The notes beneath the pieces were generated by a model. The model was not told the DNA's origin, ran no database searches, and was given only the letters and a program-made list of their open reading frames with translations. A DNA stretch of 46,362 bases from Bacteroidales bacterium. GTDB taxonomy: Bacteria; Bacteroidota; Bacteroidia; Bacteroidales; P3. The DNA is taken from positions 1 through 46,362 of the forward strand of contig JAFZKV010000080.1 of the NCBI GenBank assembly GCA_017551765.1. The letters are read 5' to 3'. Position 1 is the stretch's first letter. Every line of letters starts with the position of its first letter. Positions 14,393-44,026 of this stretch are shown one piece after another. A program made the translations under genes and the position numbers.

Positions 14393-14491
14393 CTCCGACT
14401 GTGGTCCGACTCAAGTCCGAGTCAAGTCCGACTGATGTCCGACCACAGTCGGACAAAATACGGTGTATCTACGGTGCAGATACGAATATGT
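14393..14491. repeat. 11-bp lattice array, word GTCCGAC
   Basis: Nine units of 11 bp run without a break. The first five carry GTCCGAC or a one-base variant at 14393, 14404, 14415, 14426 and 14437. The next has the inverted word GTCGGAC at 14448. Then come three units beginning TACGGTG, TACGGTG and TACGAAT at 14459, 14470 and 14481. The segments 14395-14410 and 14437-14452 are inverted copies with one mismatch, so a hairpin is possible. The last unit runs into the palindrome GTCGTGCACGAC. Confidence 0.88.
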
Positions 14492-14557
14492 CGTGCACGA
14501 CATAAGTTGGGTGTCCGGTGGCCGGTCGTCGGTGGCCGGGAATGGGGTCGCTGAACA

Positions 14558-14592
14558 CCGGCTACTGACTACCAACCACCGACCACCCACTA
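14558..14592 (-). repeat. Heptamer array covering the plug gene stop codon
   Basis: Five 7-bp units (CCGGCTA, CTGACTA, CCAACCA, CCGACCA, CCCACTA on the plus strand) start at 14558 and repeat every 7 bp. The stop codon of the plug gene (minus strand TAG, 14592-14590) is the last triplet of the array. Confidence 0.85.
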
Positions 14593-15879
14593 TGGGTTCG
14601 CCAGGCGGCGGACGGCGACGAGGCGGTCGGCGCGGTCGGAGGGGCTGCGGTGGTAGACGAAGACGGTGTAGCGGTTGGGGGCCTCGCGGTGGTCCCCCTC
14701 AAGGCGGGCGGTGGCTGAGGGGTAGCTGGTGGCCGGTAGCTGGTGGCCGGTAGTCGGTGGCCGATGGACGGGAACGACCAGCAGCTGGTAGGCGTAGTAG
14801 CCTTGCTTGAGCAATAGGCGTTTGGTGTAGGCGTGGTACTTGGGGTTGTATTCCATCTGGCTGAGGCTGTCGAGCCGCCAGTCGGTGAGGGCGCCGACGA
14901 TGTGGACGGTGCCGTCGAGCATCGGCTGCGCCATCGGCAGGCTGAAGTTGACCCACACATAGTCGGCCTCGAGACGTGGGTTGTTGCGGTCCCAGATGTT
15001 GACTTTCATGCCGCCGTTGAGGGTGGTGGTGGCAATGTAGTGCTTGGCCGAGCGGTCTTCCTCGGGGCGCAGGATGGCGAAGGTTTCGCCGCCGTATTCC
15101 TCGACGCGGACGATGTTGTACATGGGGGTGCGCAGGTTGCTGCAGTCGAAGTAGCGGAAGTTGTTGCCGCCGTGGAAGATGTTCTCCTGACGGTAGCGGT
15201 AGGCGAGGCCCTGGCCGTCGTAGCCGCTGAAGGCGAGCTCGCTGAGGTTGTCGAGGCGGCCGTTCTGTTGCACCATAACATGCATATACTCAGGTCGCAG
15301 CTGTATCATGAAGGGCTGTTGCTGCCCCTCCTGCAGCACCACGTCGACCTCCTGGCGGCGGTCGATGTCGATGCCGTCGTAGGGGCGTGTGACGGTGGCC
15401 TCGACCTTGACGGCCTGCTCGCTGACGCAGAAGCGGCGGCGCAGCAGGGGGGTGGTGTCGGACAGGACTTCGACGATGTAGTTGCCCGAGTGGGTGAACT
15501 CGGCGTAGGCGGCAGGCAGGGTGGTGCTGTAGTGCACGTAGTCGGTGAGGGTGGTGAAGGAGAAGTCGTAGTTGTCGACGGTGCCTTCGGCAAAGCCGTT
15601 GAGGAACTCGATGGGGTCGAGGCCGTCGGTCCGCCATTGGCGGTCGCAATGCAGCAGGTGCCAGGTGAGGGACTCGGGCTCGGCGCGCAGGATGTCGAAT
15701 TCGAGCACCAGACGGCGGTTGCTACCGAGGGTGAGCACGGGGAAGTCGAGTTCGGAGCCTTCGACATAGAGCTGGACGCTCTTCACGTCGCCGCGCATGG
15801 CGGTGTCGCCGAGGGTTTGCGCCTTCAGAGGCATCGCGCAGCAGAGCAGCGCCATGAGGGTCGGCAGGAGTCGTTTCAT
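14590..15879 (-). CDS. Type IX secretion system plug protein (DUF5103 family)
   Basis: This 429-aa protein has signal peptide MKRLLPTLMALLCCAMPLKAQ. The body matches the DUF5103 / T9SS plug family: an N-terminal beta domain (about 25-145, HLLHCDRQWRTDGLDPIEFL), a middle block with RPEYMHVMVQQNGRLDNL and FHGGNNFRYFDCSNLRTP, and a C-terminal starch-binding-like region with NPKYHAYTKRLLLKQGYYAY and EGDHREAPNRYTVFVYHR. In Flavobacterium the plug closes the SprA translocon channel on the periplasmic side when no substrate is passing, so this gene links the locus to the T9SS operon at 23-30 kb. A heptamer array at 14723-14764 inserts about 14 P/T/H-rich residues between the two C-terminal blocks. 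The start codon lies 10 bp after the upstream leucine-rich-repeat gene, which suggests co-transcription. Confidence 0.88.
   Translation of the reverse strand: MKRLLPTLMALLCCAMPLKAQTLGDTAMRGDVKSVQLYVEGSELDFPVLTLGSNRRLVLEFDILRAEPESLTWHLLHCDRQWRTDGLDPIEFLNGFAEGTVDNYDFSFTTLTDYVHYSTTLPAAYAEFTHSGNYIVEVLSDTTPLLRRRFCVSEQAVKVEATVTRPYDGIDIDRRQEVDVVLQEGQQQPFMIQLRPEYMHVMVQQNGRLDNLSELAFSGYDGQGLAYRYRQENIFHGGNNFRYFDCSNLRTPMYNIVRVEEYGGETFAILRPEEDRSAKHYIATTTLNGGMKVNIWDRNNPRLEADYVWVNFSLPMAQPMLDGTVHIVGALTDWRLDSLSQMEYNPKYHAYTKRLLLKQGYYAYQLLVVPVHRPPTTGHQLPATSYPSATARLEGDHREAPNRYTVFVYHRSPSDRADRLVAVRRLANP
14723..14764 (-). repeat. Heptamer array inside the plug gene
   Basis: Six 7-bp units start at 14723 (TAGCTGG, TGGCCGG, TAGCTGG, TGGCCGG, TAGTCGG, TGGCCGA), in a 14-bp higher-order pattern. 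They are in frame with the plug gene near residues 372-386, between two family-conserved blocks. Confidence 0.9.
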
Positions 15880-15889
15880 GGTGCAAAAG

Positions 15890-17752
15890 CTAATATATGA
15901 TTACTTTCTGGGCAGGCATAGAGCCTACTTTGACCAGATAGACTCCGGCGGCGGGTTGCGTTTTGCTCACCTCGCGGCCTATCAGGTCGTAGACGCGGAA
16001 CTCGTCCACCGGCCGTCCATCGAGGCTCACTTCAATGTGCCCTTCTGTGACGGCAATATGTATAGGGTTTGTCTTGCCAGGTTCTTCGATGCTTTCGGTG
16101 CTGCCCACAGCGAAGATGGCTTGTATGGCAGTGTCCTGCACTACAGCGAGGAAGCGGTGGGGCTCTGTGTTGCCGTCGCTCCATTGCTCGAAATGATAGC
16201 TGAGGAAGGGAGTGGCCTGCACTTCAGCTTCGTTGTTGTCGCAGTCAGGTTGGCGGAGTACTTGCACTATGCCGTGAGAACTGTGGTCGGGAGTGGCGCG
16301 GAAACTATAGGTGAATTCTTCCTCAGTGGGGAGCTGGTTCCAGAAGGAGGTATTCTGGTAGGTTGGGGCGGCGTCGCAGGGAACGCGGAGGGTGGCAGTG
16401 GACGGTATATTGGCGAAAGTATTGGATTGGGCTGTAGGTGGGGTGACTCCGCGCATGTGGATTTTAGATAGATGGATGCAACCACTCAGTATCCGTTGGC
16501 CCAAGGTTGTGACGCCACGACCGAAGAATATGTCGGTCAAATGATCGTTGTTCCAAAAAGCGAGGTCTCCAATGGATGTGATGCCATCGGGTATGTTGAT
16601 GGAAGGCAAACTGTAGCAATTTGCGAAAACGCCGTCGCCAATGGAGGTAATGCCTCTGCCGATGTTGACGGAAGTCATGCTTCCGCACCCCAGGAATGCC
16701 GAGTCGCCGAGGAAGGTAACATTGTCGGGAATGGTGATGGAGGGGAGGCTATTGCAACCTTGAAAAGCCAGCCGATTGATAGCGGTGACACCGTGGCCAA
16801 TACTGACTGCGTTTAGACCAATGCAATTGGCGAAAGCAAAGTCGTCAATAGTGGTGACGGAATCGGGAATGATGACGTGGGTTAGATTTTGCAGGCACGA
16901 ACACACGCGGGAGGGGATGACCTTGACGTGTTCGCCAAAGATGAAGTGGGAGATGTTGTTACATTCAGCAAATGGCAAAAAGGAGGATATGTTTATTGCC
17001 ATCGTCGAGCAGTTTTCTGCATTGAATGATACGGTGCTCAGGTTTTCGCAACCATAGAAGGCCCGCATGCCGAGGTAAGTTAGGGACCGTGGAATGGTAA
17101 CGGTACTTAGGCCGCTGCAACCTAAGAAAGCATCGTCGTTGATATGGGTGATGGAGTTGGGGATATTGATGGAGGATAATTCACTGCAATAAAAGAAAGC
17201 TCTGCTGGCAATGGAGGTGACGGAGGAGGGGATTACGGTGTTCTTACAACCAATCAACAGAGTATTGGAAGCAGTCTCAATAATTGCATTGCAGTTGTTT
17301 CGGCTGTCGTAGACGGTGTTGTCGCTTGATACGACGAGATAGGAGCATTTCTTTTTATTGAAAATGTTATTGCCAATGTATGTGACGCCGCTGCCAATAG
17401 AAAAGGAGATGATGCTGTCGCAACCATCAAAGGCTCCTCCCCAGATGGTGGTGACGGTGTTGGGTATGGTGACGGAGGTCAGCATATAACATTGCTTAAA
17501 GGCGTCGGGAGCAATTATCGTGACAGGGTAGGTATTTCCATTGTGTTCGATGCTGTCGGGAATGATGAGGTCGCCAATGGGCGTAGGGTAGCCTGTCCAA
17601 CCTGTAGATGTTGGAGAACAAATAGAAATGGACTGTGTGTTTTCGTTGAAAGAAAAGTAAATTCTTTGCTGTGGATTCAAATCAATATAGCCGCATATCG
17701 CTTGCAGGGATATCAGCAACACGGTCGCAATCAGTATTATCTTCTTCTTCAT
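15890..17752 (-). CDS. BspA-like leucine-rich-repeat protein, T9SS cargo
   Basis: This 620-aa protein starts with signal peptide MKKKIILIATVLLISLQAIC. About a dozen LRR_5 (BspA / Treponema type) repeats of roughly 23 residues fill residues 60-460, with units of the form SITIPDNVTFLGDSAFLGC. A short beta domain follows (about 480-545). The end is a type A T9SS sorting domain (DEFRVYDLIGREVSKTQ, AAGVYLVKVGS, QKVIIY). BspA-type proteins bind host or bacterial surface components; the ligand here cannot be told. It probably shares a transcript with the plug gene downstream. A TATTTTTG -7 box lies at 17805-17798 on the minus strand, but no clear -33 box was seen at the usual distance. Confidence 0.9.
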   Translation of the reverse strand: MKKKIILIATVLLISLQAICGYIDLNPQQRIYFSFNENTQSISICSPTSTGWTGYPTPIGDLIIPDSIEHNGNTYPVTIIAPDAFKQCYMLTSVTIPNTVTTIWGGAFDGCDSIISFSIGSGVTYIGNNIFNKKKCSYLVVSSDNTVYDSRNNCNAIIETASNTLLIGCKNTVIPSSVTSIASRAFFYCSELSSINIPNSITHINDDAFLGCSGLSTVTIPRSLTYLGMRAFYGCENLSTVSFNAENCSTMAINISSFLPFAECNNISHFIFGEHVKVIPSRVCSCLQNLTHVIIPDSVTTIDDFAFANCIGLNAVSIGHGVTAINRLAFQGCNSLPSITIPDNVTFLGDSAFLGCGSMTSVNIGRGITSIGDGVFANCYSLPSINIPDGITSIGDLAFWNNDHLTDIFFGRGVTTLGQRILSGCIHLSKIHMRGVTPPTAQSNTFANIPSTATLRVPCDAAPTYQNTSFWNQLPTEEEFTYSFRATPDHSSHGIVQVLRQPDCDNNEAEVQATPFLSYHFEQWSDGNTEPHRFLAVVQDTAIQAIFAVGSTESIEEPGKTNPIHIAVTEGHIEVSLDGRPVDEFRVYDLIGREVSKTQPAAGVYLVKVGSMPAQKVIIY

Positions 17753-17797
17753 ATTGTTGTATTGGTTTTGAGGTTAAAACACATGTATATACGACTG

Positions 17798-17805
17798 CAA
17801 AAATA
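17798..17805 (-). promoter_or_regulatory. Probable -7 promoter box of LRR gene
   Basis: TATTTTTG on the minus strand lies 46 bp upstream of the LRR start codon. The expected TTTG -33 box is not at 19-20 bp; only a weak CTTG sits 16 bp away. No clear promoter for the divergent miaB was recognised in the same gap. Confidence 0.5.
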
Positions 17806-17863
17806 CGTTTTTTTTTCAATACAAGAGTAAAATAATTTTATACTTGTTGCGTTTTTATGCTAC

Positions 17864-19192
17864 ATGATGGAGAAGATATACATAGAAACGTATGGTTGTC
17901 AGATGAATTTTGCCGACACTGAGGTGGTGGGTTCCATCCTCGTGGCGGCGGGCTACGGCCTCACGGAGACGATAGAGGAGGCCGATTTTGTGCTCATCAA
18001 CACCTGTGCCATACGCGACAATGCCGAACAGCGCGTGCGCCACCGTGTGCGCGAACTGAGGGCCCTGCAAAACCGCCATGCGCGCTTGCGCGTGGGCATC
18101 CTGGGATGCATGGCCGAGCGGCTGCAGGACAGGCTGATGGCCGAGGAGGACAACCTGTCGTTTGTCTGCGGCCCCGACGCCTACCGTAGGCTGCCCGAGC
18201 TGCTGCGTCAGGTGCGCGAAGGACAGAAGGCCGCCGAGGTGGAGCTCAGCACCGTAGAAACCTATGCCGACATTGAGCCTGTGCGTCTCGGAAGCAACGG
18301 CATCACGGCCTATATCAGCATCATGCGCGGCTGCCAGAACTACTGCGCCTATTGCGTGGTGCCCTACACGCGTGGCCGCGAGCGCAGTCGCGACCCGCAG
18401 ACCATCGTGGACGAGGCCCGCACGCTTTTCGAGCAGGGCTACCGCGAGGTGACGCTGCTGGGACAGAATGTGAACAGCTACCGGTGGGCGGTGGACGGTG
18501 GGTCGTCGGTGGGTTTCCCCGAACTGATGGAGCGTGTGGCGCTGATTTCGCCGCTGCTGCGTGTGCGCTTCGCCACGTCGCACCCCAAAGACCTCAGCGA
18601 TGACCTGCTGGAGGTGATGGCGGCACACCCCAATATCTGCCGCTGCATACACCTGCCCGTGCAGAGCGGCAGCGACAGGATGCTGAAGTTGATGAACCGC
18701 AAGTACACGGTGGAGTGGTATCTCGACCGTGTGGCGGCCATCCGTCGATACCTGCCCGACTGCTCCATCACGACCGATGTCATAGCAGGCTTCAGCACCG
18801 AGACCGAGGAGGACCATCAGGCTACCCTCGAACTGTTCAGGAAAGTGCGCTACGACTATGCCTATATGTTCAAGTACTCGTTGCGCGAGGGCACCTATGC
18901 CTGGCGCCATCTGGCCGACGACATCGACGATGCCGAGAAGACGCGTCGCTTGAACGAGATTATCGCCCTGCAAGGCCAGATAGCCCTGGAGAACAACCGG
19001 CAAGAGGTGGGGCGCGAGTATGAGGTGCTGGTGGAGGGTGAGAGTCACCGCTCGAAAGAGCGCCTTTTCGGCCGCAATAGCCAGAACAAGGTGCTGGTGT
19101 TCGACCGAAAGGATGCCGTCCCGGGCACTTACCGGCGTGTGCGTGTCACCGACTGCACAGCCGCCACGCTGTTGGGAGAGCTGGTTGGGTGA
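17864..19192 (+). CDS. miaB: tRNA-2-methylthio-N6-dimethylallyladenosine synthase MiaB
   Basis: MiaB is a radical-SAM methylthiotransferase that modifies i6A37 to ms2i6A37 in tRNAs reading UNN codons. Of 442 residues, C12, C48 and C82 are the three N-terminal (UPF0004) cluster ligands. C157, C161 and C164 form the radical-SAM CxxxCxxC motif (RGCQNYCAYCVVPYTRGRE). A C-terminal TRAM domain follows (about 380-440). Start is ATG 17864, with a second ATG at 17867. Residues 208-217, encoded by G-rich near-heptameric DNA at 18485-18512, form a G/S/V-rich stretch just before FPELME, where the family normally has a short linker. It leads a tight plus-strand cluster; the next gene starts 34 bp later. 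Confidence 0.96.
   Translation: MMEKIYIETYGCQMNFADTEVVGSILVAAGYGLTETIEEADFVLINTCAIRDNAEQRVRHRVRELRALQNRHARLRVGILGCMAERLQDRLMAEEDNLSFVCGPDAYRRLPELLRQVREGQKAAEVELSTVETYADIEPVRLGSNGITAYISIMRGCQNYCAYCVVPYTRGRERSRDPQTIVDEARTLFEQGYREVTLLGQNVNSYRWAVDGGSSVGFPELMERVALISPLLRVRFATSHPKDLSDDLLEVMAAHPNICRCIHLPVQSGSDRMLKLMNRKYTVEWYLDRVAAIRRYLPDCSITTDVIAGFSTETEEDHQATLELFRKVRYDYAYMFKYSLREGTYAWRHLADDIDDAEKTRRLNEIIALQGQIALENNRQEVGREYEVLVEGESHRSKERLFGRNSQNKVLVFDRKDAVPGTYRRVRVTDCTAATLLGELVG
18485..18512 (+). repeat. Possible heptamer array inside miaB
   Basis: TGGGCGG, TGGACGG and TGGGTCG follow one another every 7 bp, then TCGGTGG. The words resemble those of the arrays in the R2 elements, and the frame stays open. 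This copy is weaker than those in tilS and the plug gene. Confidence 0.5.
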
Positions 19193-19218
19193 TAAGTTAT
19201 TAAGTGATAAGTGTAAAG
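19191..19218 (+). repeat. Short degenerate repeat GATAAGT between miaB and PASTA gene
   Basis: GATAAGT occurs at 19191-19197 and 19206-19212, with an 8-bp variant between and a GTAAAGA-like unit after. It overlaps the miaB stop codon and fills most of the 34-bp gap. It may be a small relative of the heptamer arrays. Confidence 0.5.
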
Positions 19219-19226
19219 ATTAAGAT

Positions 19227-20111
19227 ATGGCAAAAGAGAATTTCTTCAAACGTTTCCCGTGGGCACTGCACCTGCTGATTATGCTGGGTGTGTCGCTTGT
19301 CGTGCTGATGGTGGTGCTTTTCTTCATCCGCATCTATGCGCGTCAGGGAGAGGAATATGAGTTGCCCGATGTGGTGGGGCGCAATATTGCCGAGTTGCAA
19401 GACGATAACCCCATTGAACTCGACGTGGTGGTGATGGACTCCATCTTTCGTCCAGGCGAGGCCGGTGGCCTTATCCTGACCCAAGACCCCAAGGCCGGCA
19501 CAATGGTGAAGAAAGGGCGCAAACTCTACATCACCATGACGGCCTATACCCCCGAGGATGCCGTGCTGCCCGAGTTGGCAGGCCTCACGGTGCGTCAGGC
19601 GGTGAATGAGTTGTATGCCGAAGGCCTCGTGGTGGGTAAGTTGAAGTTTGTGGAAGATCCCTATAAGAACAACGTCATAGACCAGACATGCAAAGGCAAG
19701 ACCCTCTATGCGGGCCAGCAGATTGAGCGCGGTTCGGTGGTGGATCTGGTGGTGGGTTTGGGCGACGGCTCGGGCCGCAGTGTGGTACCCTTCACCATTG
19801 GTAAGACGGCCGACCGTGCGCGGCGCGACATTGTGTCGGCTTCGCTCAATGTGGGCCGTGAGCACTATAGCGGCGTGAAGCATCGCCAGACAGCTGTGGT
19901 GTGCCGCCAGGAGCCCGACTATACGGGTGTGTCGAAGTATCCCTATGGCACCTCGGTAGACCTGTGGTTTATCGATGCCGACGCCACCGATGTGGACCGC
20001 ATGGTGCGCGAGTTCAAGGTGGACTCAAGCAAGATTGAGGACCCCAATTTTATTGATGATGGACGCCCCACGCCTGACGAGATAGAAGCCAACGAGGAAT
20101 GGTCATGGTAA
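19227..20111 (+). CDS. PASTA domain membrane protein
   Basis: This 294-aa protein has a short cytoplasmic head, one transmembrane segment (about 13-35) and three PASTA-type repeats outside the inner membrane (about 43-110, 112-180 and 184-252). The repeats carry the usual pattern, for example LPDVVGRNIAEL and LPELAGLTVRQAVNELYAEG. PASTA domains recognise peptidoglycan muropeptides or act as spacers. No kinase domain is fused, unlike the Ser/Thr kinases of Gram-positive bacteria. The acidic tail (DDGRPTPDEIEANEEW) has no known function. The 3' end overlaps the next gene by 13 bp. Confidence 0.88.
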   Translation: MAKENFFKRFPWALHLLIMLGVSLVVLMVVLFFIRIYARQGEEYELPDVVGRNIAELQDDNPIELDVVVMDSIFRPGEAGGLILTQDPKAGTMVKKGRKLYITMTAYTPEDAVLPELAGLTVRQAVNELYAEGLVVGKLKFVEDPYKNNVIDQTCKGKTLYAGQQIERGSVVDLVVGLGDGSGRSVVPFTIGKTADRARRDIVSASLNVGREHYSGVKHRQTAVVCRQEPDYTGVSKYPYGTSVDLWFIDADATDVDRMVREFKVDSSKIEDPNFIDDGRPTPDEIEANEEWSW

Positions 20112-21964: not shown

Positions 21965-21966
21965 GC

Positions 21967-22977: not shown

Positions 22978-23001
22978 GCAAATAAATACTAACACCAACC
23001 G

Positions 23002-23093
23002 ATCAACAATTGTTCAACGCTATTTCAACGGTATTTCAACGGAAAAAAGCGTTGAAATACCGTTGAACTGCCATAGAACAAACCATGAAGGGT
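23002..23093. repeat. 11-bp lattice hairpin, word TTCAACG
   Basis: TTCAACG words sit at 23013, 23024 and 23035, with a decayed ATCAACA at 23002. Inverted CGTTGAA words follow at 23050 and 23061, with decayed CATAGAA and CCATGAA at 23072 and 23083. Each run has an 11-bp step. The segments 23024-23041 and 23050-23067 are a perfect 18-bp inverted repeat around an 8-nt loop. No T-tract follows, so it is not a standard terminator. Confidence 0.92.
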
Positions 23094-23099
23094 AGTACC

Positions 23100-23193
23100 C
23101 ATCCATGACTTTTCTATGCCCGTTCTTTGGTCGTTCTTTGCTTTTTTTCAAAGAACGACCAAAGAACGCCCGATAAACAATCAAGGAATGGTC
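23100..23193. repeat. 11-bp lattice hairpin, word CGTTCTTTG
   Basis: CGTTCTTTG lies at 23122 and 23133, with decayed versions in phase at 23111 and 23100. The inverted word CAAAGAACG lies at 23150 and 23161, with decayed versions at 23172 and 23183. The segments 23122-23141 and 23150-23169 are a perfect 20-bp inverted repeat with an 8-nt T-rich loop. It lies in the convergent gap between rluD and the T9SS operon and could end transcription from either side, but neither strand has a U-tract after the stem. Confidence 0.92.
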
Positions 23194-23212
23194 GGCCCCA
23201 GGTCAGTGTGGG

Positions 23213-33931: not shown

Positions 33932-34343
33932 AATAGGTCGTGCACGATGTAAATAGTGGTCGGTAGCCGGTAGCCGGTGGTCGGTTTTCGGCCCGAATAC
34001 CTACCTACTGACTTCGCTCTAACACCGCCCTAACGCCCACTGTTGTCCTATTGTTGTCCTATTGATGTCCCATTGTTGTCCGTTTAATAATCGAACAACA
34101 AACGGACAACAAACGGACAACAAACGGACATCAGTCGGAGTTACATTGGAGTTACACGGGCTTTGTTCGGTACTAATAACCAATTTATTGCGTGCCGAAC
34201 TTTACATTTCCTGCCCTGATATCAGCGCCGCTGCATGTGGCACCAGCCAGAATGTCTTGGTTGTCTCCGTTGTTGTCCCCAATCACCGGCCACCGACCAC
34301 CGGTTACCGACCACCCTAAAATACATCGTGCACGACATAAATC
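33932..34343. repeat. Composite repeat element R2B (GTGCAC palindromes, heptamers, 11-bp lattice)
   Basis: The gap 33877-34615 has no credible gene. This element is bounded by the palindromes GTCGTGCACGAT (33937-33948) and ATCGTGCACGAC (34325-34336). Inside each end lies a heptamer array: TGGTCGG/TAGCCGG at 33957-33991, and inverted CCGACCA/CCGGCCA at 34286-34313. An 11-bp lattice array fills 34019-34161. The segment 34162-34285 shows no clear pattern. The same parts make up 14207-14592. Confidence 0.87.
34019..34161. repeat. 11-bp lattice array, word TTGTTGTCC and inverse
   Basis: Thirteen consecutive 11-bp units. Two CTAAC units start the run; GTCC cores lie at 34045, 34056, 34067 and 34078; then comes an 11-bp spacer; GGAC cores lie at 34104, 34115 and 34126, with GGAG at 34137 and 34148. 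TTGTTGTCCGTTT (34073-34085) and AAACGGACAACAA (34100-34112) are perfect inverted copies. Confidence 0.92.
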
Positions 34344-34476: not shown

Positions 34477-34481
34477 CCCAA

Positions 34482-34599: not shown

Positions 34600-34615
34600 C
34601 AAAAAATTTGATGCC

Positions 34616-35881: not shown

Positions 35882-35892
35882 AACACACTAGG

Positions 35893-35997: not shown

Positions 35998-36002
35998 GGA
36001 TT

Positions 36003-36119
36003 TCCAAGATTTACAGGATCTCCGCGCAGCGGGGAGCATAAAAAAACAGGATTTCTGGATTACGCCGACAGGCGGGAGTTTGAAAACCGCCGGCGGGAGG
36101 TGGAAGAAAAATAAATTTG
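36003..36119 (+). repeat. R1 repeat, copy C (upstream of vanX-like promoter)
   Basis: It contains AAGATTTACAGGATCTCC, CGCGCAGCGGGGAGCAT and GGATTACGCCGACAGGCGGG, then a further CCGCCGGCGGGAGG segment and an A-rich end leading into TTTG (36116-36119). It is more rearranged than the other copies but has the same orientation relative to the downstream gene. With the partial R3 copy it accounts for most of the 355-bp gap 35882-36236. Confidence 0.75.
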
Positions 36120-36147
36120 CGTTTTCGGATTAGTTTGTGTATATTTG
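36116..36147 (+). promoter_or_regulatory. Promoter of the vanX-like gene cluster
   Basis: TTTG (36116-36119) and TATATTTG (36140-36147) are separated by 20 bp. The leader to the ATG at 36237 is about 80 nt, and includes CCCCCAAAAGGG near 36164. Confidence 0.8.
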
Positions 36148-36236
36148 CAGCGATGAATTGCAGCCCCCAAAAGGGTTGATGCGTGTGTAATGTGCTGATT
36201 TATTTTGGTTAATGTGAAAATTAAACATATTATAAT

Positions 36237-37001: not shown

Positions 37002-37019
37002 TCCTATATCTACAGTATC

Positions 37020-37598
37020 ATGAAAAAATCACTGCTGATTGCGGCCCTGATGGCCGTTGCGATGAGCGCCAGCGCTCAATGGTTCGATTTCTCAAACAAC
37101 AAGGACCGCTATGAGGTCGGTTTCAATATTGGTGTGGCCGGTCTGAACACTACTTATCAAGACTTTGGGGCCGGTGCCAGCATCAGTGCTTGGGGTGTCT
37201 ATATCGACTGCCTCTCGGCAGGCCCGGAGCACCGCTATGACAATCATGTGAACGGAAACTTGTGGGAAGACTCCACGGCCGTGGTTGTCAATGCCGGTTA
37301 CCAAATCCCCGTGCTTCCGTGGCTCCGTATGATGCCGATGGTAGGCTATTGCCAGACCACCTACGGCCTCACCGATGCCTCGACGGTCAACGTTGAGACC
37401 AACGAGAACAGCAGCTCCATCTATCACGACTATGTGGTCCTTGCGGGCACACGCAAGCATTACTTCAACTTCGGTGCCGGCATTATCGTGTCGCCTTTCA
37501 AGTGGTGCAGCATCTACGGTGTCTACAGCCGCAACGCCATCTACGGCGGCATCAGCGTCAACCTGGGCGGCGTCAATTGGAATGAAATGGGAGATTAA
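37020..37598 (+). CDS. Small envelope protein, probable outer-membrane beta-barrel
   Basis: This 192-aa protein has a clear signal peptide (MKKSLLIAALMAVAMSASAQ). The rest has alternating hydrophobic/polar strands with aromatic ends (YEVGFNIGVAGLNTTYQDF, WLRMMPMVGYCQTTYGL, HYFNFGAGIIVSPF, AIYGGISVNLGGVNW), as in small outer-membrane barrels. I do not recognise the family. The start is 18 bp after the vanX-like stop, and the next gene starts 21 bp after its end, so it is probably co-transcribed with both. Confidence 0.7.
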   Translation: MKKSLLIAALMAVAMSASAQWFDFSNNKDRYEVGFNIGVAGLNTTYQDFGAGASISAWGVYIDCLSAGPEHRYDNHVNGNLWEDSTAVVVNAGYQIPVLPWLRMMPMVGYCQTTYGLTDASTVNVETNENSSSIYHDYVVLAGTRKHYFNFGAGIIVSPFKWCSIYGVYSRNAIYGGISVNLGGVNWNEMGD

Positions 37599-37619
37599 CT
37601 ATTTTTATTACATCACGAT

Positions 37620-37961
37620 ATGACTTTACAAGCGATTGTTGACAAGCTCGGCGCCTCGGTGGGCCTTGGCGCCGACAAGTTGGATAAGGAGGTGGAGCAC
37701 TGCTTCGCCTCGGACCTGATGAGCGACGTGCTGACCTTGAAGGACACGCCGGTGCTCATCACGGGCCTGTGCAATGTGCAGACCATCCGCACCTGCGACA
37801 TGGCCAACCTGGAGGTGGTTATCTTCGTGCGCGGCAAGCGCCCCACGGAGGACATGGTGGAGCTGGCCGACGAGAATGACATGGTGCTCATCTGCACACC
37901 CTATTCGATGTTCAAGACCTGCGGCCTGCTGTGGGAGTTGGGCATGAAACCGTTATATTGA
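37620..37961 (+). CDS. DRTGG-domain protein
   Basis: This 113-aa protein covers a single DRTGG-like domain (LVITGLCNVQTIRTCDMANL region and late VLICTPYSMFKTCGLLWELG). DRTGG domains are small modules of unknown biochemical role, known from CBS-DRTGG proteins and from clusters with hydrogenase-like iron-sulfur proteins. The next two genes, an anti-sigma-type ATPase and a hydrogenase-like protein, are its usual partners in anaerobes, which supports the call. It ends 6 bp before the ATPase gene. Confidence 0.8.
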   Translation: MTLQAIVDKLGASVGLGADKLDKEVEHCFASDLMSDVLTLKDTPVLITGLCNVQTIRTCDMANLEVVIFVRGKRPTEDMVELADENDMVLICTPYSMFKTCGLLWELGMKPLY

Positions 37962-37967
37962 TAGATT

Positions 37968-38381
37968 ATGCATCAGGAGTATACAGTGATAGAAGGCGAC
38001 TTTGTCAATGCCGGCAAAGCGAGCAGCTCGGTGAAGAAGACGCTGAAGCAGCTGAATGTGAACCCGCAGGTGGTGAAGCGTGTGGTGGTGGCCCTCTACG
38101 AGGCCGAGGTGAACGCCATCGCCCATGCCTATGGCGGCAAGGTGCTGGTGGACATCGACCCCGATAAGATACGTATGGTGGTGGCCGACAAGGGACCCGG
38201 CATCCCCGACATCGCCCTGGCTATGCAGGAAGGCTACAGCACCGCGCGCCCCGAGGTGCGCGACATGGGCTTCGGCGCCGGCATGGGCCTGCCCAATATG
38301 CAGAAGAATGTCGATAAAATGAATGTGACTTCCGAGGTCGGCGTGGGCACCACCGTCGAGATGGAAGTGAACTTTGTATAG
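37968..38381 (+). CDS. Anti-sigma-type (RsbW-like) GHKL ATP-binding protein
   Basis: This 137-aa stand-alone GHKL ATPase has an N-box EAEVNAIAHAYGG (Glu47, Asn51-region), G1 box DKGPGIPD (74-81) and G2 box GFGAGMGLPNM (101-111). RsbW/SpoIIAB relatives phosphorylate anti-anti-sigma factors or bind sigma factors. No partner STAS protein is nearby; the DRTGG and iron-sulfur neighbours suggest a redox-linked switch instead. The gene ends 1 bp before the next start codon. Confidence 0.86.
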   Translation: MHQEYTVIEGDFVNAGKASSSVKKTLKQLNVNPQVVKRVVVALYEAEVNAIAHAYGGKVLVDIDPDKIRMVVADKGPGIPDIALAMQEGYSTARPEVRDMGFGAGMGLPNMQKNVDKMNVTSEVGVGTTVEMEVNFV

Positions 38382-38382
38382 T

Positions 38383-39744
38383 ATGTTTTACCACGCCCTA
38401 CAGATAGAAGAGCCGCGCTGCATAGGATGCTCGCGCTGCATGAAGATTTGCCCCACCGAGGCCATCCGCATTTTTGGCGGCAAGGCCTCCATACAGGAAC
38501 ACCGCTGCATCGACTGCGGCAAGTGCTACGAAGTCTGTCCGGCGCAGGCCATCAGCATCAAGGACGACGACTTCGAGGCGTTCCGCCGCTACCCCCATTC
38601 GGTGGCTCTGCTGCCGGCGGTCTTTATGGGTCAGTTCCCTGACGACATCAGCGTGTCGAAGGTCTACGCCACCCTCTACGAGTTGGGGTTCGCCCACGTG
38701 ATGGAGGTGGAGAGCGCCGCCATGATATACAAGGAGGCCAAGGAGCGCTATGCCCGTGAGCACCCCGACATCAGGCCCCTCATCTCGTCGTTCTGCCCCG
38801 CCATCGTGCGGCTGATACAAATCAAGTATCCTTCGCTGGCGGAGAATGTGATGCCCATCAAGGTGCCGCTGGACCTCAGCGCCATGTATGCCGTCGAGGA
38901 ACTGATGAGCCGTGGCATCCCGCGCGAGGAGATTGGCCTGTTCTACATCACCCCCTGTGCCGCCAAGGTGTCGGCCGTCAAGGCCCCCGTGGGTGAGGAG
39001 AAGAGCATCATTGACGGTGTAATCAACATGAACTCGTTGTTCAACCGTGTGTACAAGCGCATGAAGGACAACGGCAAGAACCACCAATACAAGCCCTTGA
39101 CACGTCAGCGCCTGGGCGCCGACGCCATCCTCAGCACGCTGACCAACGGCGAGCGCCGCATCTGCACCGCCAAGCGCAGCTATGCCATCGACGGCATACA
39201 GAACGTGATGGACTTCCTCGACAAGATGGAAAACGAGGAGGTGGAAGGCGTGGAATTCCTCGAACTCAGGGCCTGCGACCAGAGTTGCGCCGGTGCCCTG
39301 CTCTCGTGCGACAACCGTTTCCTGTGCGGCGAGCGCATGTATGCCCGTGCGCGCAAGGCCGCCGAGCGCGAGCGCAACGGCGAGATGCCGCGTGACCGCG
39401 AGATGGAGAAGTATCAGGAATATCTGATTGAGCACTCGCTTGTCGAGGAGGTGCAACCCCGATCGATGATGGTGCTCGACAGCGACATAGGCAAGGCGCT
39501 GGAGAAGATGGAGAAGATTGAACGGCTGAAGGTGCAGTTGCCACAGATTGACTGCGGTGTCTGCGGTGCGCCCACCTGCGAGGCCTTCGCCACCGATGTG
39601 GTGTGCGACAAGGCCCACCTGCACCAATGCGTCTTCTATCGCATCCACTTGGAACAGAACGGCAAGATGAGCCTCCGCGACGGCGGCGCCAACATGAAGA
39701 GCATCTGGGGCGAGGACCGTATCGAAAAAGAGATAGAACTTTGA
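38383..39744 (+). CDS. [FeFe]-hydrogenase-like iron-sulfur protein, probable redox sensor
   Basis: This is 453 aa from ATG 38383; a TTG three codons earlier overlaps the upstream stop. Two [4Fe-4S] ferredoxin motifs lie at C13-C16-C19-C23 and C42-C45-C48-C52. The middle is the hydrogenase large-subunit C-terminal domain, reduced: SFCP (C138), TPCAAK (C192) and ACDQSC (C298, C302) keep the four cysteine ligands of the H-cluster cubane. The proton-relay cysteine is Phe137, and the glycine-rich ECMGCPGGC context is lost. A C-terminal putative Fe-S domain has DCGVCGAPTCEAF (C391, C394, C399) and C408/C416. Catalytic H2 turnover is doubtful; sensing or electron transfer with the two preceding genes is more likely. 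Confidence 0.87.
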   Translation: MFYHALQIEEPRCIGCSRCMKICPTEAIRIFGGKASIQEHRCIDCGKCYEVCPAQAISIKDDDFEAFRRYPHSVALLPAVFMGQFPDDISVSKVYATLYELGFAHVMEVESAAMIYKEAKERYAREHPDIRPLISSFCPAIVRLIQIKYPSLAENVMPIKVPLDLSAMYAVEELMSRGIPREEIGLFYITPCAAKVSAVKAPVGEEKSIIDGVINMNSLFNRVYKRMKDNGKNHQYKPLTRQRLGADAILSTLTNGERRICTAKRSYAIDGIQNVMDFLDKMENEEVEGVEFLELRACDQSCAGALLSCDNRFLCGERMYARARKAAERERNGEMPRDREMEKYQEYLIEHSLVEEVQPRSMMVLDSDIGKALEKMEKIERLKVQLPQIDCGVCGAPTCEAFATDVVCDKAHLHQCVFYRIHLEQNGKMSLRDGGANMKSIWGEDRIEKEIEL

Positions 39745-41621
39745 CCGTCAGCAATTATTTTGCACATTTGCGCGCGTTGGTTGCGCAGGAATTGGAGGAG
39801 GAGAAGCGCGCCTACCAGCGCAGCCTTGAGGAGAAGGGTGTCACGCTGACGGGGACCATCCACGAGGCCGCTTGTCGCTATCCGATACGGTTGGGCAACA
39901 ACGCCTACAACGCCCTGGGACAGCTTACGGTGGAAGTGCGCTATGAGGTGGACGAAGACGAGGTGGAGCTCGACTTCGAGCCTGGAAAGCCTGTGACTTT
40001 CTTTTACCTGACCGATAGCGGTGCCAAGGAGTTGCCGCACCAATGCTATGTGGAGCGTGTGGGTGACGGCGCGATGGCGCTCAGCATGCCCAACAAGGCC
40101 GCCGCTCAGAGCCTGCACGACACTGCCGAACGGCACCTGTTGGGGGTGCAGCTGGGGATTGACAACACTACTTTCCGCGTGATGGCCGAAGCTTTGCATG
40201 AGGCGGAGTGTAAGGAGGATGAGCGCTTCGTGCGGCTGCGCGAGGTGCTCCTGGGTCAACGGCCGCCGTCGTTCCGTGTGCTGCCGCAACTGAGTTTTCC
40301 GTGGCTCAACCGTAGCCAGCAGGACGCCATACAGCGTGTGGTGGAGTCGCAGGAGGTGGCTATTGTGCACGGTCCTCCGGGGACGGGCAAGACCACCACG
40401 TTGGTGGAGGCCGTCATCGAGACATTGCAGCGTGAGATGCAGGTGCTTGTATGTGCACCGAGCAATGCTGCGGTGGATTGGATCAGTGAGCAGTTGATGC
40501 GTCGCGGTATCCATGTGCTGCGGGTGGGCAATCCGCTGAGGATGAGCGACGAGATGCTCGACTGTAGTTATGAGCGCCGCTATGCAGCGCACCCCGACTA
40601 TCACGAGCTGTGGAACATACGCAAGACGCTGCGCGAGGGTGCCAAAGGTGAGCAAGCCCACCGTCTGCGCAACCGCGAGACGGAATTGGAAATCAAGATA
40701 AATGCAGACCTTTTCGAGCAGGCACGCGTGGTGAGTTGTACGCTGATAGGCAGCGCCTACCGCCTCATGGAACGCCGCCACTTCTCCACACTGTTCATTG
40801 ACGAGGCAGCCCAGGCGTTGGAGCCCGCTTGCTGGGCGGCGATGCTGAAGGCCGACAGGGTGGTGATGAGCGGAGACCACCAGCAGCTGCCGCCAACGGT
40901 GAAGAGTCTGGAGGCAGCCAAAGGAGGCTTGGCCGACACGTTGATGCAGAAGGTGGTGACGCTGTGGCCGCAGGCGGTCAGTCTGCTGACGGTACAGTAC
41001 CGTATGAATGAGGAAATAATGGCCTTCCCGTCGCGATGGTTCTACGGCGGGCGCCTGCTCGCTGCCGACGAGGCGGCGCACCGTCTGGTGTCACCGATAG
41101 ACACACCCTTGATATGGCTCGACACCTCGGCGCTGGACTATGAGGAAAAGGAAAACCGGCATAAGAGCATCAGTAATAGCCAGGAGGCGCGGCTGGTGAT
41201 ACACACCCTGCGGGACTACATAGAGATGATTTCACCCCAGCGGGTTGAAAGTGAGCGGGTGGACTTTGGTATTATCACTCCCTACCGAGGCCAGGCGCGG
41301 CTGATACGTCGCCTGCTGAAGATGCAGCATTATTTCAGGAAGTTGCGCCGGCATATCACGGTTGGTACCGTCGACGGCTTTCAGGGACAGGAGCGCGACG
41401 TAATCGTTATCAGTCTGGTACGCGATAATGCAGGCGGCTCCATAGGCTTCCTGCGTGACCTGCGGCGTATGAATGTGGCGATGACCCGTGCGCGCATGAA
41501 ACTTATTATCGTAGGTAGCGCGCAGACGTTGGGCCACCATCGTTTCTACCGCGAGTTGGCGGAACATGTCAGGCGGTACGGAGAATTCGTTGAGGTGCCA
41601 CCAGCAGAAGAATCACGCTAA
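39741..41621 (+). CDS. SF1 DNA/RNA helicase, IGHMBP2/UPF1-like
   Basis: This is about 626 aa if it starts at TTG 39741, whose TTGA overlaps the TGA stop of the preceding gene. An upstream extension to 39603 would read through that gene in another frame and has an unlikely basic composition. The N-terminal beta-barrel-like region (about 20-130) precedes the helicase core: Walker A VHGPPGTGKTTTLVEAV (about 209), CAPSNAAVDW, Walker B TLFIDEAAQALEPA (about 352), SGDHQQLPPTVKS, LLTVQYRMNEEIMAFPS, IITPYRGQA, TVDGFQGQERDVIVISLVR and RMNVAMTRAR. It probably remodels nucleic acids in replication, repair or RNA metabolism. Its last 53 bp overlap comEC on the other strand. Confidence 0.88.
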   Translation: MTVSNYFAHLRALVAQELEEEKRAYQRSLEEKGVTLTGTIHEAACRYPIRLGNNAYNALGQLTVEVRYEVDEDEVELDFEPGKPVTFFYLTDSGAKELPHQCYVERVGDGAMALSMPNKAAAQSLHDTAERHLLGVQLGIDNTTFRVMAEALHEAECKEDERFVRLREVLLGQRPPSFRVLPQLSFPWLNRSQQDAIQRVVESQEVAIVHGPPGTGKTTTLVEAVIETLQREMQVLVCAPSNAAVDWISEQLMRRGIHVLRVGNPLRMSDEMLDCSYERRYAAHPDYHELWNIRKTLREGAKGEQAHRLRNRETELEIKINADLFEQARVVSCTLIGSAYRLMERRHFSTLFIDEAAQALEPACWAAMLKADRVVMSGDHQQLPPTVKSLEAAKGGLADTLMQKVVTLWPQAVSLLTVQYRMNEEIMAFPSRWFYGGRLLAADEAAHRLVSPIDTPLIWLDTSALDYEEKENRHKSISNSQEARLVIHTLRDYIEMISPQRVESERVDFGIITPYRGQARLIRRLLKMQHYFRKLRRHITVGTVDGFQGQERDVIVISLVRDNAGGSIGFLRDLRRMNVAMTRARMKLIIVGSAQTLGHHRFYRELAEHVRRYGEFVEVPPAEESR

Positions 41622-42978
41622 TAATAATTGCAGCCATCGCCCAAGGACTTGGAGTGATGTTTTCCACGACGGCGTGCGGGAGCGTCGATACCCATCCTGT
41701 CAGCGTATCGACGAGTTGCAATAACAGGCCAAGGGGCCATGCGGTGAGTGAGCAAGGAATGGCGAGGTAAAGTAGAGACAAACCCAGCAGTATGCCGGCC
41801 AGAGGTACGATGACCACGTTGGCAATGAGAAAGTAGAGAGGCAGCCGGTGGAAGGTGGCCGTCACGATGGGGAAGGTGGCCAAAGTGGCGGCGATGCTGA
41901 CGGTGGCCGCCTGCCACAACCAATTGCGGAAGGCGCGGATAACGGGTTGCGCCAGCAGTATGCCCGCCACAGCGGTGAACGACAACTGCCATCCCACATC
42001 GAACAGCAGCATGGGCTTCACCGCCAGCATGATGATGGCCGCCGCAGCCAAGAGGTTGAGGGAACTTGTGCGCCGCGCAAGGATGTTGGAGACGACAAAG
42101 AGGCTGAACATGAGTGCGGCACGAACTGTGGATGGCGCAAACCCCGTCAGCAGAGCGAAGCCCCACAGGACAATGAGTTGTGCTGTACCGCGCAGGATAC
42201 GTCCTCGTCGTGCTTTTCCCGCCCAAAAGAAGAGTCCGCCAATGAGGGCGGCCAGCAGGCCTACGTGCAGTCCACTGACGCACAGCAGGTGCACGATGCC
42301 GCTGTCGCGAAATGCCACATTCATTTTCGGGTCTATATCTCCGCGCCAGCCCAGCGTCATGGCCTCGGCGACGCCGGCGTATTTACGCTCCAGAGGCCCT
42401 CGTTGCATACGATGCAGCAAAACCATTCGGGTGTGCTCGATTTTGGCGCGGAGTGAGGTGCTGTCGCGTTGGGTGACAATGTAATGGTCGGATGTGACGT
42501 AGATTGAGCCCCTTAAGGTGTCGGGGTAGCCGTGCATCAGCAGTTGGTCGCCGCGTTGCAAAGAGGCGGCTGTGCTGTCTTTGCGCAGGTAGAGCGTGAT
42601 GTCGCCGCGACGAGGGTGGCTGTCCACGGAAATAACCTTGGCCTTGACGCGGTAGCAGCGTTCCCGAGGCAAGGGTGTTTCTGTTGTTTTCACAGCAAGA
42701 TAGACCTTCTCGGGACAATTGTTTGTCCAATGCTGCGGGGCGTATTGAGGGTCCTCAATGCGCATCAGCAAACCACCAATGCCGGAGATAAGTATCAGCA
42801 GCCCAAGAAAAGCAGGCAGATGCTTGGTGTGGAACAGTTTGAGCGCCACTCCGGCAAACAGGCCACCACAGCCTGACAGGATGAGCCAGAAGGACAATGG
42901 TAGCGAATGGAGATGGTGCGCTGCCAGCATGCCTGCCATCAGCGCCAGCGCTACCGCCACCAACGGGGCTTTACGCAT
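41569..42978 (-). CDS. comEC: ComEC/Rec2 family protein, membrane part only
   Basis: This 469-aa polytopic membrane protein has an N-terminal DUF4131-like part with two to three helices and an OB-like segment (about 90-180), then the competence domain starting AFRDSGIVHLLCVSGLHVGLLA and about eight helices. ComEC is the inner-membrane channel for single-stranded DNA in natural transformation. The usual C-terminal metallo-beta-lactamase-like domain is absent: the frame stops after the last helix (IISVILLLVAPQRILRTA). Short ComEC proteins of this kind occur in Bacteroidota, so this may be normal for the lineage. The gene overlaps the nitroreductase gene by 8 bp at its start and the helicase by 53 bp at its end. 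Confidence 0.87.
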   Translation of the reverse strand: MRKAPLVAVALALMAGMLAAHHLHSLPLSFWLILSGCGGLFAGVALKLFHTKHLPAFLGLLILISGIGGLLMRIEDPQYAPQHWTNNCPEKVYLAVKTTETPLPRERCYRVKAKVISVDSHPRRGDITLYLRKDSTAASLQRGDQLLMHGYPDTLRGSIYVTSDHYIVTQRDSTSLRAKIEHTRMVLLHRMQRGPLERKYAGVAEAMTLGWRGDIDPKMNVAFRDSGIVHLLCVSGLHVGLLAALIGGLFFWAGKARRGRILRGTAQLIVLWGFALLTGFAPSTVRAALMFSLFVVSNILARRTSSLNLLAAAAIIMLAVKPMLLFDVGWQLSFTAVAGILLAQPVIRAFRNWLWQAATVSIAATLATFPIVTATFHRLPLYFLIANVVIVPLAGILLGLSLLYLAIPCSLTAWPLGLLLQLVDTLTGWVSTLPHAVVENITPSPWAMAAIIISVILLLVAPQRILRTA

Positions 42979-43678
42979 GGTTCAGTATGAGTTCCTCCGC
43001 ACGCACTTTGGGTACATAATGGATACCGTCTCGGCGGTAGTAGGCGTGCGGTTCGTCTGCGTGTATGGGAGTCAGTTCGATACGCTCAATTCCTTTGCCG
43101 ATGGCCAGCACCATCAGCGGGTCGTAGGGCAGGTGGAAGGCCTCCTTCAACTTCTCTCGGTTAAAGGCTCCGATAATCAATCCGTTGAGACCCATTTCCA
43201 CTGTCTTGAACAGCATGCTTTGCAAAGCAATGCCAAGGTCTACGTCGACCAACTTACTCTCAGGCGTTGTGGAGCAGCAGATGATAAAGGCTTCGGGTTC
43301 GGAGCCTGGGAGGGGGAGGTGCAGTTCGGGGAGGGCTGCGCCAAGCCGGATGAGCGGCAGTACCAGCTCGGCGCCGGTCTCTTTGGTGACAAGGAAGAAG
43401 CGCAGTGTCTGTTGGTTGCAACCTGAAGGTATTTTGGAGCATACACCGACAATGCGTTCCAGCTCATGGCGGCTCACCACATAGTCCTTGTTATAGCCTC
43501 GGTGGCTGCGGTTTTTTTTCAGCAGATCGTCGACGGTATGGCCTATGCGTTTTATTGTTTTTTTGCCCGAACCGAGCGTTTCTTCGTATCTTTTTTCCAA
43601 ATAGTTGTCTGCCATTGGTCTGTTTTTTTGAGGGTGTGACGGCTTGTTATGGACGGCTTGTTTCCTGTTCATTTCCAT
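42971..43678 (-). CDS. Nitroreductase family protein
   Basis: This is up to 235 aa from ATG 43678; an alternative ATG at 43615 gives MADNYLEKRYEE and may be the true start. FMN-dependent nitroreductase features include KNRSHRGYNKDYVV, SGCNQQTLRFFLVT, DLGIALQSMLFKTVEMGLNG and MVLAIGKG. These enzymes reduce quinones, nitro compounds or flavins with NAD(P)H in the cytoplasm; the physiological substrate cannot be told. Short family members (about 200 aa) are typical. A TATCTTTG -7 box lies at 43721-43714 on the minus strand, about 35 nt before the first ATG. It overlaps comEC by 8 bp, so the two are probably one transcript. Confidence 0.85.
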   Translation of the reverse strand: MEMNRKQAVHNKPSHPQKNRPMADNYLEKRYEETLGSGKKTIKRIGHTVDDLLKKNRSHRGYNKDYVVSRHELERIVGVCSKIPSGCNQQTLRFFLVTKETGAELVLPLIRLGAALPELHLPLPGSEPEAFIICCSTTPESKLVDVDLGIALQSMLFKTVEMGLNGLIIGAFNREKLKEAFHLPYDPLMVLAIGKGIERIELTPIHADEPHAYYRRDGIHYVPKVRAEELILNHA

Positions 43679-43713
43679 TGAGATACAGGCGTGCCGCCCA
43701 CGTTGGCGGTTTG

Positions 43714-43721
43714 CAAAGATA
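43714..43721 (-). promoter_or_regulatory. Probable -7 box of nitroreductase-comEC
   Basis: TATCTTTG on the minus strand, in the divergent gap with the tRNA gene. No TTTG is seen at 19-20 bp upstream. Confidence 0.55.
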
Positions 43722-43739
43722 CATTTTTTTTGAAAATAA

Positions 43740-43771
43740 TTTGGTCAGTTTTAAAAATGTTTGTACTTTTG
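43740..43771 (+). promoter_or_regulatory. Promoter of tRNA-Val
   Basis: TTTG (43740-43743) and TACTTTTG (43764-43771) are separated by 20 bp. The tRNA starts at 43804, about 27 bp after the expected transcription start. Confidence 0.8.
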
Positions 43772-43803
43772 CACCCGCTTTTGAAGAGAAAAAGTGCTCG
43801 ATT

Positions 43804-43878
43804 GATCTGTTAGCTCAGTTGGTTTAGAGCGCTTGCTTGACAGGCAAGAGGTCACAAGTTCAAATCTTGTACAGATCA
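43804..43878 (+). tRNA. tRNA-Val, anticodon GAC
   Basis: A complete cloverleaf of 75 nt: acceptor GATCTGT (43804-43810) pairs with ACAGATC (43871-43877); D-stem GCTC/GAGC; anticodon stem CTTGC/GCAAG with loop TTGACAG, giving anticodon GAC; T-stem ACAAG/CTTGT with loop TTCAAAT; discriminator A at 43878. CCA is not encoded. It reads GUC and GUU valine codons. It has its own promoter and a strong terminator. Confidence 0.95.
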
Positions 43879-43884
43879 CATCTC

Positions 43885-43917
43885 CAAGCGATGCAGGTTG
43901 TTGCATCGCTTGTTTTT
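43885..43917 (+). terminator. Rho-independent terminator after tRNA-Val
   Basis: CAAGCGATGCA (43885-43895) and TGCATCGCTTG (43902-43912) form a perfect 11-bp stem with a 6-nt loop, followed by TTTTT. It starts 7 bp after the tRNA. Confidence 0.93.
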
Positions 43918-43927
43918 ATATCACTCC

Positions 43928-44026
43928 GACTGTTTTTCGATTGCTTTCCGGATGTTTAACTACTGTTTAACTAAAAAATGTAGTAAAACAGTAGTTAAAC
44001 AGTAGTGGTACAGAAGTTAAACGGTG
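43928..44026. repeat. 11-bp lattice hairpin, word GTTTAAC
   Basis: Nine consecutive 11-bp units fill the gap after the terminator. GTTTAAC lies at 43954 and 43965, with decayed GTTTTTC and GCTTTCC in phase at 43932 and 43943. After an 11-bp spacer the inverted words follow: GTAAAAC (43983), GTTAAAC (43994), a decayed GTGGTAC (44005) and GTTAAAC (44016). The segments 43954-43973 and 43981-44000 are inverted copies with one mismatch. Confidence 0.92.

Follow-up and report, generated by a model that had tools for sequence, protein, structure and literature searches.

An 11-bp-step hairpin class within one Bacteroidales genus, possibly multiplied and overwritten by fold-back or ectopic template copying

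Why would intergenic DNA at several places on one contig be built on the same 11-bp step from different words? The earlier note raised this question for five gaps of the window, the whole stretch of 46,362 nucleotides analyzed here. Read directly, all five gaps hold 11-bp-step arrays at the places claimed; a unit finder listed 11-bp units in four of the five, 23100-23193 being the one not listed. Facing inverted arms, claimed for four gaps, were returned by an inverted-repeat search at all five (Table 1).

Table 1. Arrays, hairpin elements and their facing arms in the window; R1 is the covariance model described in the text.
Feature	Position	Strand	Details	Match or search
Array A	14393..14491	.	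GTCCGACTCAA units on 11-bp step, part-palindrome running into ATACGGTG units	
Facing arms, array A	14394-14420/14427-14453		27 nt, 81%	Inverted-repeat search
Hairpin element, class B	22988..23102	+	Core TTTCAACGGTA, loop GGAAAAAAGC	R1, 75.1 bits
Facing arms, array B	23010-23041/23050-23081		84%	Inverted-repeat search
Hairpin element, class C	23088..23202	-	Core GTTCTTTGGTC	R1, 68.9 bits (64.2 bits at 23097-23192)
Facing arms, array C	23097-23140/23149-23192		75%	Inverted-repeat search
Hairpin element, class D	34029..34144	.	Core TGTTGTCCGTT / ACAACAAACGG	R1, 76 bits either strand
Facing arms, array D	34020-34086/34088-34154		75%	Inverted-repeat search
Hairpin element, class E	43919..44034	+	Core TGTTTAACTAC	R1, 77.8 bits
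Facing arms, array E	43953-43973/43981-44001		95%	Inverted-repeat search

Periodicity was scored as self-similarity, with 18 of 22 matches as the criterion for lag 11. In a first sample of the window's own genome (G000; completeness 89.7%), which spanned 439,362 b and 110 gaps of at least 60 bp between simple in-house ORF calls of at least 110 aa, lag 11 gave 31 hits, vs 0, 0 and 0 in three dinucleotide shuffles; the shuffles, confined to this first sample, gave zero hits at every lag from 5 to 23. The full own-genome sample (768,532 b, 216 intergenic gaps) yielded 66 lag-11 hits in 65 gaps, with contig C41 and contig C43, which covers the same region, both counted. Lag 7 was the other populated step (36 hits), and multiples of 7 and 11 were populated as well (20 hits at lag 14, 12 at 21, 31 at 22, 7 at 28 and 8 at 33), while each remaining lag from 5 to 33 had 0-1 hits. 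The sister genome (G041, the record holding locus L103; Bacteroidales RGIG9971, yak reticulum) gave 69 lag-11 hits in 67 of 349 gaps, 31 hits at lag 7 and, outside the multiples of both steps, 0-4. Because 22 and 33 are populated and non-multiple lags are near-empty, the step is 11 and not an average of 10.5; the average helical repeat of B-DNA is 10.5 bp. The earlier note had let its claim stand or fall with a genome-wide excess over shuffled intergenic DNA and with membership in a known element family. The excess is present, and Rfam gave no family at gathering score in the window besides tRNA. The observation of 11-bp arrays is confirmed, and its interpretation as a whole is partly supported.

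The second step class, of 7 bp, consists of GGTCGGT/AGCCGGT and A/T-rich heptamers and occurs in the window at 14231-14261, 14721-14763, 33957-33987 and 34284-34315. At 33938-34341, element D lies between TCGTGCACGA palindromes that carry 7-bp arrays and face each other; the pieces around this element resemble the ends of a composite of about 400 bp, and similar ones flank array A and recur in the genome. A further 68 bp of 7-bp-step sequence (14510-14577), beside a shared array, are absent from the sister, and a tilS-like gene contains internal heptamer repeats at 11799-11830 and 12367-12398.

Four of the five window arrays (B, C, D and E) represent the same kind of element, a hairpin about 115 bp long whose arms each contain four 11-bp units and whose loop is short and A/T-rich. 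The earlier note had placed them correctly and drawn them too narrowly, since the elements are wider and of fixed extent (Table 1). Elements B and C overlap by 15 bp around a GGGTAGTACCC link, element D has extra 11-bp units on either side, and element E sits downstream of tRNA-Val. Many hairpin arms end in GGAGTCA-like letters. With arrays centred on the loop, the motif GG[AT]GT[CT]A occupies offset 50 in 16 own arms out of 78 and in 14 sister arms out of 54; other offsets have weaker peaks. Among 14 arms of more distant relatives it was seen in none. Array A belongs to a separate dispersed family; the hairpin model R1 has no match to it in the window and weakly matches three A-like arrays elsewhere.

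The hairpin class was defined from an alignment of 37 of 49 listed elements, with the A-class and some weak ones left out. The 37 elements align nearly gap-free over 117 columns, four TT:AA pairs are invariant across them, and a C:G pair recurs every 11 columns. Changes on both sides of a pair occupied 298 cells, vs 134 on average after shuffling and 52-97 in slid controls, a comparison biased in favour of the structure because it was drawn from the same 37 sequences. The covariance model R1 gave 101 matches for the own sample and 58 for that of the sister, both strands counted, most of them at the full 115-116 bp, which is the length of the model itself; its E-values are rough. These merged to 53 own places, three A-like arrays among them, and 30 sister places; the 53 comprise 52 from the own-sample scan, after two C41 duplicates were dropped, and one from the genome-wide scan, which gave at least 150 matches in the own genome with both strands counted. 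That the words "differ completely", as had been claimed, holds insofar as the words do differ and fails insofar as phased TT..C / G..AA letters are common to the hairpin classes.

Tandem pairs of hairpin elements about 111 bp apart with common end letters are frequent (L163:8643-8868, L068:1075-1300, L183:7985-8210), often a C or B element beside an H element; the pair in the window (22988-23202) is spaced at 100 bp.

The words are not private to their gaps, a point that the earlier note missed: each of the five window arrays has dispersed copies elsewhere in the own genome, and the arrays belong to families of fixed size. With 40 of 79 candidates scored, array A has at least 39 other own-genome places, 84-93% identical over 83-99 of its 99 bp. 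It has at least 40 places in the sister, where the orthologous locus L103 is 91% identical, four partial ones in G012 and none in G042 and G043. The C core recurs near letter-for-letter at 20 places in the own sample, with outer units that are locus-specific. R1 matches the own genome, 22 of 36 other same-genus genomes and one of 24 genomes from other families (G029, two matches), under stricter filters at which weak matches are lost. The word-independent lag-11 signal appeared 24 times in 42 relatives' loci and five times in 45 further same-genus gaps, and not once in 92 gaps from 11 genomes of other families. Five other species fill the same architecture with differing words, namely TCGAAGAACAA, CCGTTAAACAA/CCGTAGAACAA, GTAATACTACC, TCGTTGAAATA and CCGTAGAAGTA, which bears out this part of the earlier note's claim. 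One exact 46-nt C core and one exact 22-nt H word had no match in viral contigs, nor had the class D element of the window in plasmids and phages.

These counts come from draft assemblies, mostly metagenomic as far as titled, a setting in which palindromes assemble poorly; species were delimited by sequence identity, with flanks about 84-95% identical. Contig C41 was kept in the lag scan, the syntenic-gap counts and the R1 counts of the own genome and excluded from the gap-orientation density, the C-core copy count, the arm-mismatch test and the end-motif offsets; in the placement of orthologous elements, two of its three places were dropped. The contig pairs C41/C43, C13/C90 and C30/C49 of the own genome seemingly each carry one region twice, with identical match scores.

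Comparison of orthologous gaps with the sister species, which the earlier note had proposed, revealed gain, loss and change of core word. Among 140 syntenic gaps (C41 duplicates included), a lag-11 array was present in both species in 15, in the own species only in seven and in the sister only in three. The RluD/GldN junction spans 235 bp with elements B and C in the window and consists of overlapping stop codons in the sister; by eye it is compact in the more distant L104, L105, L109 and L114 too. At oC59:3448 the sister hairpin is 44 bp shorter at its tip. For 7-bp arrays, the same 140 gaps (C41 duplicates again included) gave 12 in the own species only, four in the sister only and five in both.

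Both flanks anchored 18 of the 53 own elements in the sister sample, and nine of these have an R1 element at the sister locus, one of them A-class in both species. At the eight loci with a non-A element in both, the core word, its class assigned by the presence of short words, differs in seven: C to H twice, D to H twice, H to B, E to B and B to H from own to sister, with oC112:409 keeping core C. Place and 11-bp phase are kept at these loci, so that, as the earlier note had put it, the architecture is conserved and not the word. The swapped-in cores are words known from other loci, as seen for C and B. The other nine placed loci have no sister R1 element; at some of them a different 11-bp array (oC18:8492, oC36:5491) or a decayed array is present, and the sister locus of element E has a decayed stretch and a different 11-bp array. 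Five A-class arrays at orthologous places keep the A word, and the A-class array oC59:8571 is absent from the sister. Two 11-bp arrays without a clear hairpin, L064:14694-14751 (GGGAAGTCCTT) and L071:3200-3245 (GGGGAGTGAAA), have the same word in the sister.

How much of the old element survives an exchange varies among the seven loci. The whole gap is kept within 1 bp at four (285/286, 182/181, 116/117 and 316/315). At oC134:6439 and oC41:508 the model match is 116 bp on both sides and the gap or interval lengths differ (347/303 and 278/205), and at oC107:13815 the swapped element differs by 23 bp (123/146). In the outer 33+33 bp, 55, 51, 48 and 46 of 66 letters match at four loci, and at the remaining three, with 36, 38 and 31 of 66, the units are unrecognizable. 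Non-orthologous controls (up to 300 draws) matched at 52% on average and at 51 of 66 letters at best, which only the pair at 55 exceeds. At oC43:7934, letters more than about 42 bp from the center are all but identical in both species and the inner ones differ.

A second line of evidence comes from young families in four species (G012, G019, G048 and G044), in which 58 of 59 copies were in register, L308 being left out. Of 2,610 cells, 58 were off consensus in both arms, 57 of them with the same letter, and 75 in one arm; independence would give 3.5 both-arm cells from marginals of 93 and 98. Counted as distinct haplotypes, which within one species are not independent events, and without L282, which ends in a contig-end fold-back, 48 cells were symmetric vs 75 one-arm, and one extra both-arm cell had different letters. 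By species, symmetric and one-arm haplotype cells numbered 6 and 1 in G012, 35 and 65 in G019, 0 and 2 in G048, and 7 and 7 in G044. Offsets 18-37 contain 31 of the 48 symmetric cells and six of the 75 one-arm cells; changes confined to one arm are found close to the loop and at the ends. In G012, the arms are identical over offsets 5-41 in 16 of 16 copies, with four different arm sequences. Since both-arm changes far exceed expectation and the G012 arms are identical, either each arm serves as template for the other or pairing is under strong selection. The 17 copies in G048 hardly differ over the inner 51 bp of each arm; at offset 52 conservation drops to 0.53, and outside the core offsets 55, 56, 59 and 62 are conserved at 0.91-1.00. 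Judging from this drop and recurrence in the letters, a new core seems to lie within older units in which the 11-bp register persists.

We put at somewhat under an even chance the reading that these are DNA hairpins multiplying within one Bacteroidales genus and overwritten by fold-back or ectopic template copying. As the mechanism we infer template switching. During replication, a hairpin would allow the growing strand to change template: by folding back it would copy its own arm and so make the two arms match, and by moving to another copy it would overwrite a core of about 50-100 bp in an older element, in a register set by the 11-bp units. The core word could then turn over fast and sweep many loci, with size and phase retained and, often, the old outer units too. 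Template switching would explain the arm symmetry, the core sweeps, the kept register and, where seen, the kept length. The earlier note had suggested templated extension or slippage with an 11-nt step; arm-symmetric variation favors the copying, and nothing found forces the 11-nt step, for which inheritance through the copying register may be the simplest answer. More tentatively still, the genus may host a hairpin population continually rewritten in place, with one arm regenerated from the other and cores sweeping between loci, so that size and 11-bp register are inherited and sequence is not. Against overwriting, the outer-unit scores of 46, 48 and 51 are not above the best non-orthologous pair, gap or interval lengths differ at three of the seven loci, oC112:409 keeps its core and five A-class loci keep theirs; one-arm changes also outnumber symmetric ones in G019 and equal them in G044. 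The symmetry of the arms might also result from selection for pairing or, in part, from short-read assembly of palindromes.

The nuclease SbcCD removes long-palindrome structures in E. coli, as the accessible part of one source describes (PMC3733652). SbcD is patchy here, passing the cut-off in 14 of 37 same-genus genomes, with none in the own genome (89.7% complete); among the ten genomes with at least 29 R1 matches, the own one included, it is present in three and was not found in seven. SbcCD cleavage is therefore unlikely as the sole trigger in the own lineage. Absence of SbcD is not a rule among element-rich genomes, and the finding of none in seven of the ten fits tolerance of long palindromes.

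The hairpins might instead be non-autonomous transposons, palindromic elements moved in trans by a transposase and inserted independently at favored sites such as the ends of old elements, an explanation that we consider unlikely. It accommodates the equal gap lengths because every family has the same size, and it fits the gain of 235 bp carrying two elements between RluD and GldN, the tandem arrangement of elements at a spacing of about 111 bp and the young G048 copies, nearly identical in differing flanks. Since the outer units are unrecognizable at three of the seven swapped loci or within the control maximum, independent insertion at a favored site is possible there. For lengths of at least 5 bp, the search for target-site duplications speaks against it: 71 own and sister elements and four young families show no consistent one, though one of 2-4 bp may exist, and in no set was a repeat of at least 5 bp outside the element seen in more than one copy. 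Flanking 4-bp repeats occur in three of 16 G012 copies (offset 58) and two of 17 G048 copies (offset 65); excesses of 2-bp repeats fall on 11-bp-step positions, the larger counts on the element's own letters. A RAYT (Y1_Tnp) gene occurs in 17 of 25 genomes, and searches for a transposase of this type (PF01797) drew no match in the own genome, G008, G017 or G019, though the last three are element-rich (56-60 R1 matches; 81-90% complete). Lengths kept at four of seven loci, a single pair above the control maximum and a possible 2-4 bp duplication lowered our estimate for copying and raised that for a transposon. Retroelement-driven copying is disfavored; reverse transcriptase gave no match in the own genome, and of the ten genomes with at least 29 R1 matches seven have none, G048 and G012 have one each and G019 has one below the cut-off. 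RAYT and reverse transcriptase seem not to be required as copying machines.

Selection on DNA architecture, by which phased TT/AA and G..AA letters bind a protein or bend DNA and the 11-bp step is kept while words drift, appears improbable as the main cause. It would account for the TT:AA pairs invariant at four helix positions and the C:G pairs every 11 columns in the 37 elements, and for a step held across unrelated words in the genus. Against it stand the strict 11-bp step with its multiples 22 and 33, vs the 10.5-bp average of B-DNA, and the placement of phased AA elsewhere in some species' families, such as GTAATACTACC in G012; arm-symmetric variation and core sweeps are left unexplained. 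The phased TT/AA letters nevertheless leave room for selection on DNA alongside template copying.

We regard as very improbable a structured RNA or terminator, in which the transcribed hairpin acts as RNA and 11 bp, as the earlier note remarked, is one A-form turn, even if the hairpins are long and carry compensatory pairs. Arm mismatches numbered 86 GT vs 107 AC (275 others), which shows no G.U tolerance and disfavors RNA-level selection. This test covered the 51 strongly palindromic of 131 arrays, a palindrome score that none of 131 mononucleotide-shuffled controls reached and that was computed over a longer arm than in the end-motif centring. The mismatches showed no over-dispersion (chi2 45, 51 hairpins), and in tandem gaps the sense-strand split was 48 to 45. 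Array density was similar across gap orientations, at 0.85 per kb in tandem, 0.93 in convergent and 0.96 in divergent gaps of the own genome and 0.58, 0.49 and 0.65 in the sister; intrinsic terminators are disfavored, as arrays are not excluded from divergent gaps. The A-form reading of the step is not supported, on the same two grounds, G.U tolerance and gap orientation. Rfam at gathering score matched only the tRNA in the window and nothing in the elements of four relatives, and sub-threshold hits were to microRNA-precursor models, many on both strands.

Slippage microsatellites that share a unit by chance, suggested by the tandem units within arms and the 7-bp arrays of the same genome, are hardly credible, as most R1 matches span the fixed length in full, the end motifs have their peak at a single offset, and only steps 7, 11 and their multiples have more than one hit in the own sample.

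The main new result is the exchange of words in place: over a distance no greater than that between two sister species, a new sequence takes over while location and architecture are retained. Template switching and arm-to-arm correction of DNA hairpins thereby become measurable in nature, and searches by sequence would split this one element class into many unrelated-looking families. Exchangeable letters at a fixed size and an 11-base step suggest an unusual way for repeats in a group of gut Bacteroidales to spread and rewrite themselves.

Among known systems, the literature covered, mainly abstracts and few subscription journals, describes no hairpin class with an 11-bp step and no word exchange, and the accessible text of a whole-tree hairpin paper (PMC13155455) contains neither "Bacteroid-" nor "periodic". 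BrickBuilt of Porphyromonas gingivalis is likewise an intergenic Bacteroidales repeat of tandem units with predicted long stem-loops; it consists of 23-nt direct repeats in variable number, with a leader and a tail, and without a BLASTn match outside the species, and word exchange is not described for it in the portion of the paper available (PMC4596501). The step here is 11, and lag 23 gave no hits in the own genome and one in the sister. REP and REPIN sequences, which go with RAYT transposases, are also intergenic hairpins that form populations within genomes (PMC3116915); the elements here have far longer arms with an 11-bp unit. The definition of REP and REPIN as GTAG- or CGTC-tagged palindromes of 20-40 bp, as given in an extract of PMC3733652, does not cover elements of about 115 bp with ends that read GGAGTCA, GGTNTTG, GGAGG and CTACCGG among others. 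Template-switch mutation that maintains hairpins offers the same one-step arm-to-arm copying as an explanation of symmetric changes; the part of the source at hand describes it for RNA genes and not for dispersed elements with core sweeps (PMC8794818). The hairpin elements may be MITEs, with which they share a short (about 115 bp), non-coding and dispersed form, inverted-repeat ends and species-level families. They differ in their internal 11-bp units, in orthologous cores that differ and in that no target-site duplication of at least 5 bp was found; a transposase search that covered PF01797 alone found no cognate. REP/REPIN and BrickBuilt each fail a tested feature, and the elements are filed among dispersed palindromic repeats.
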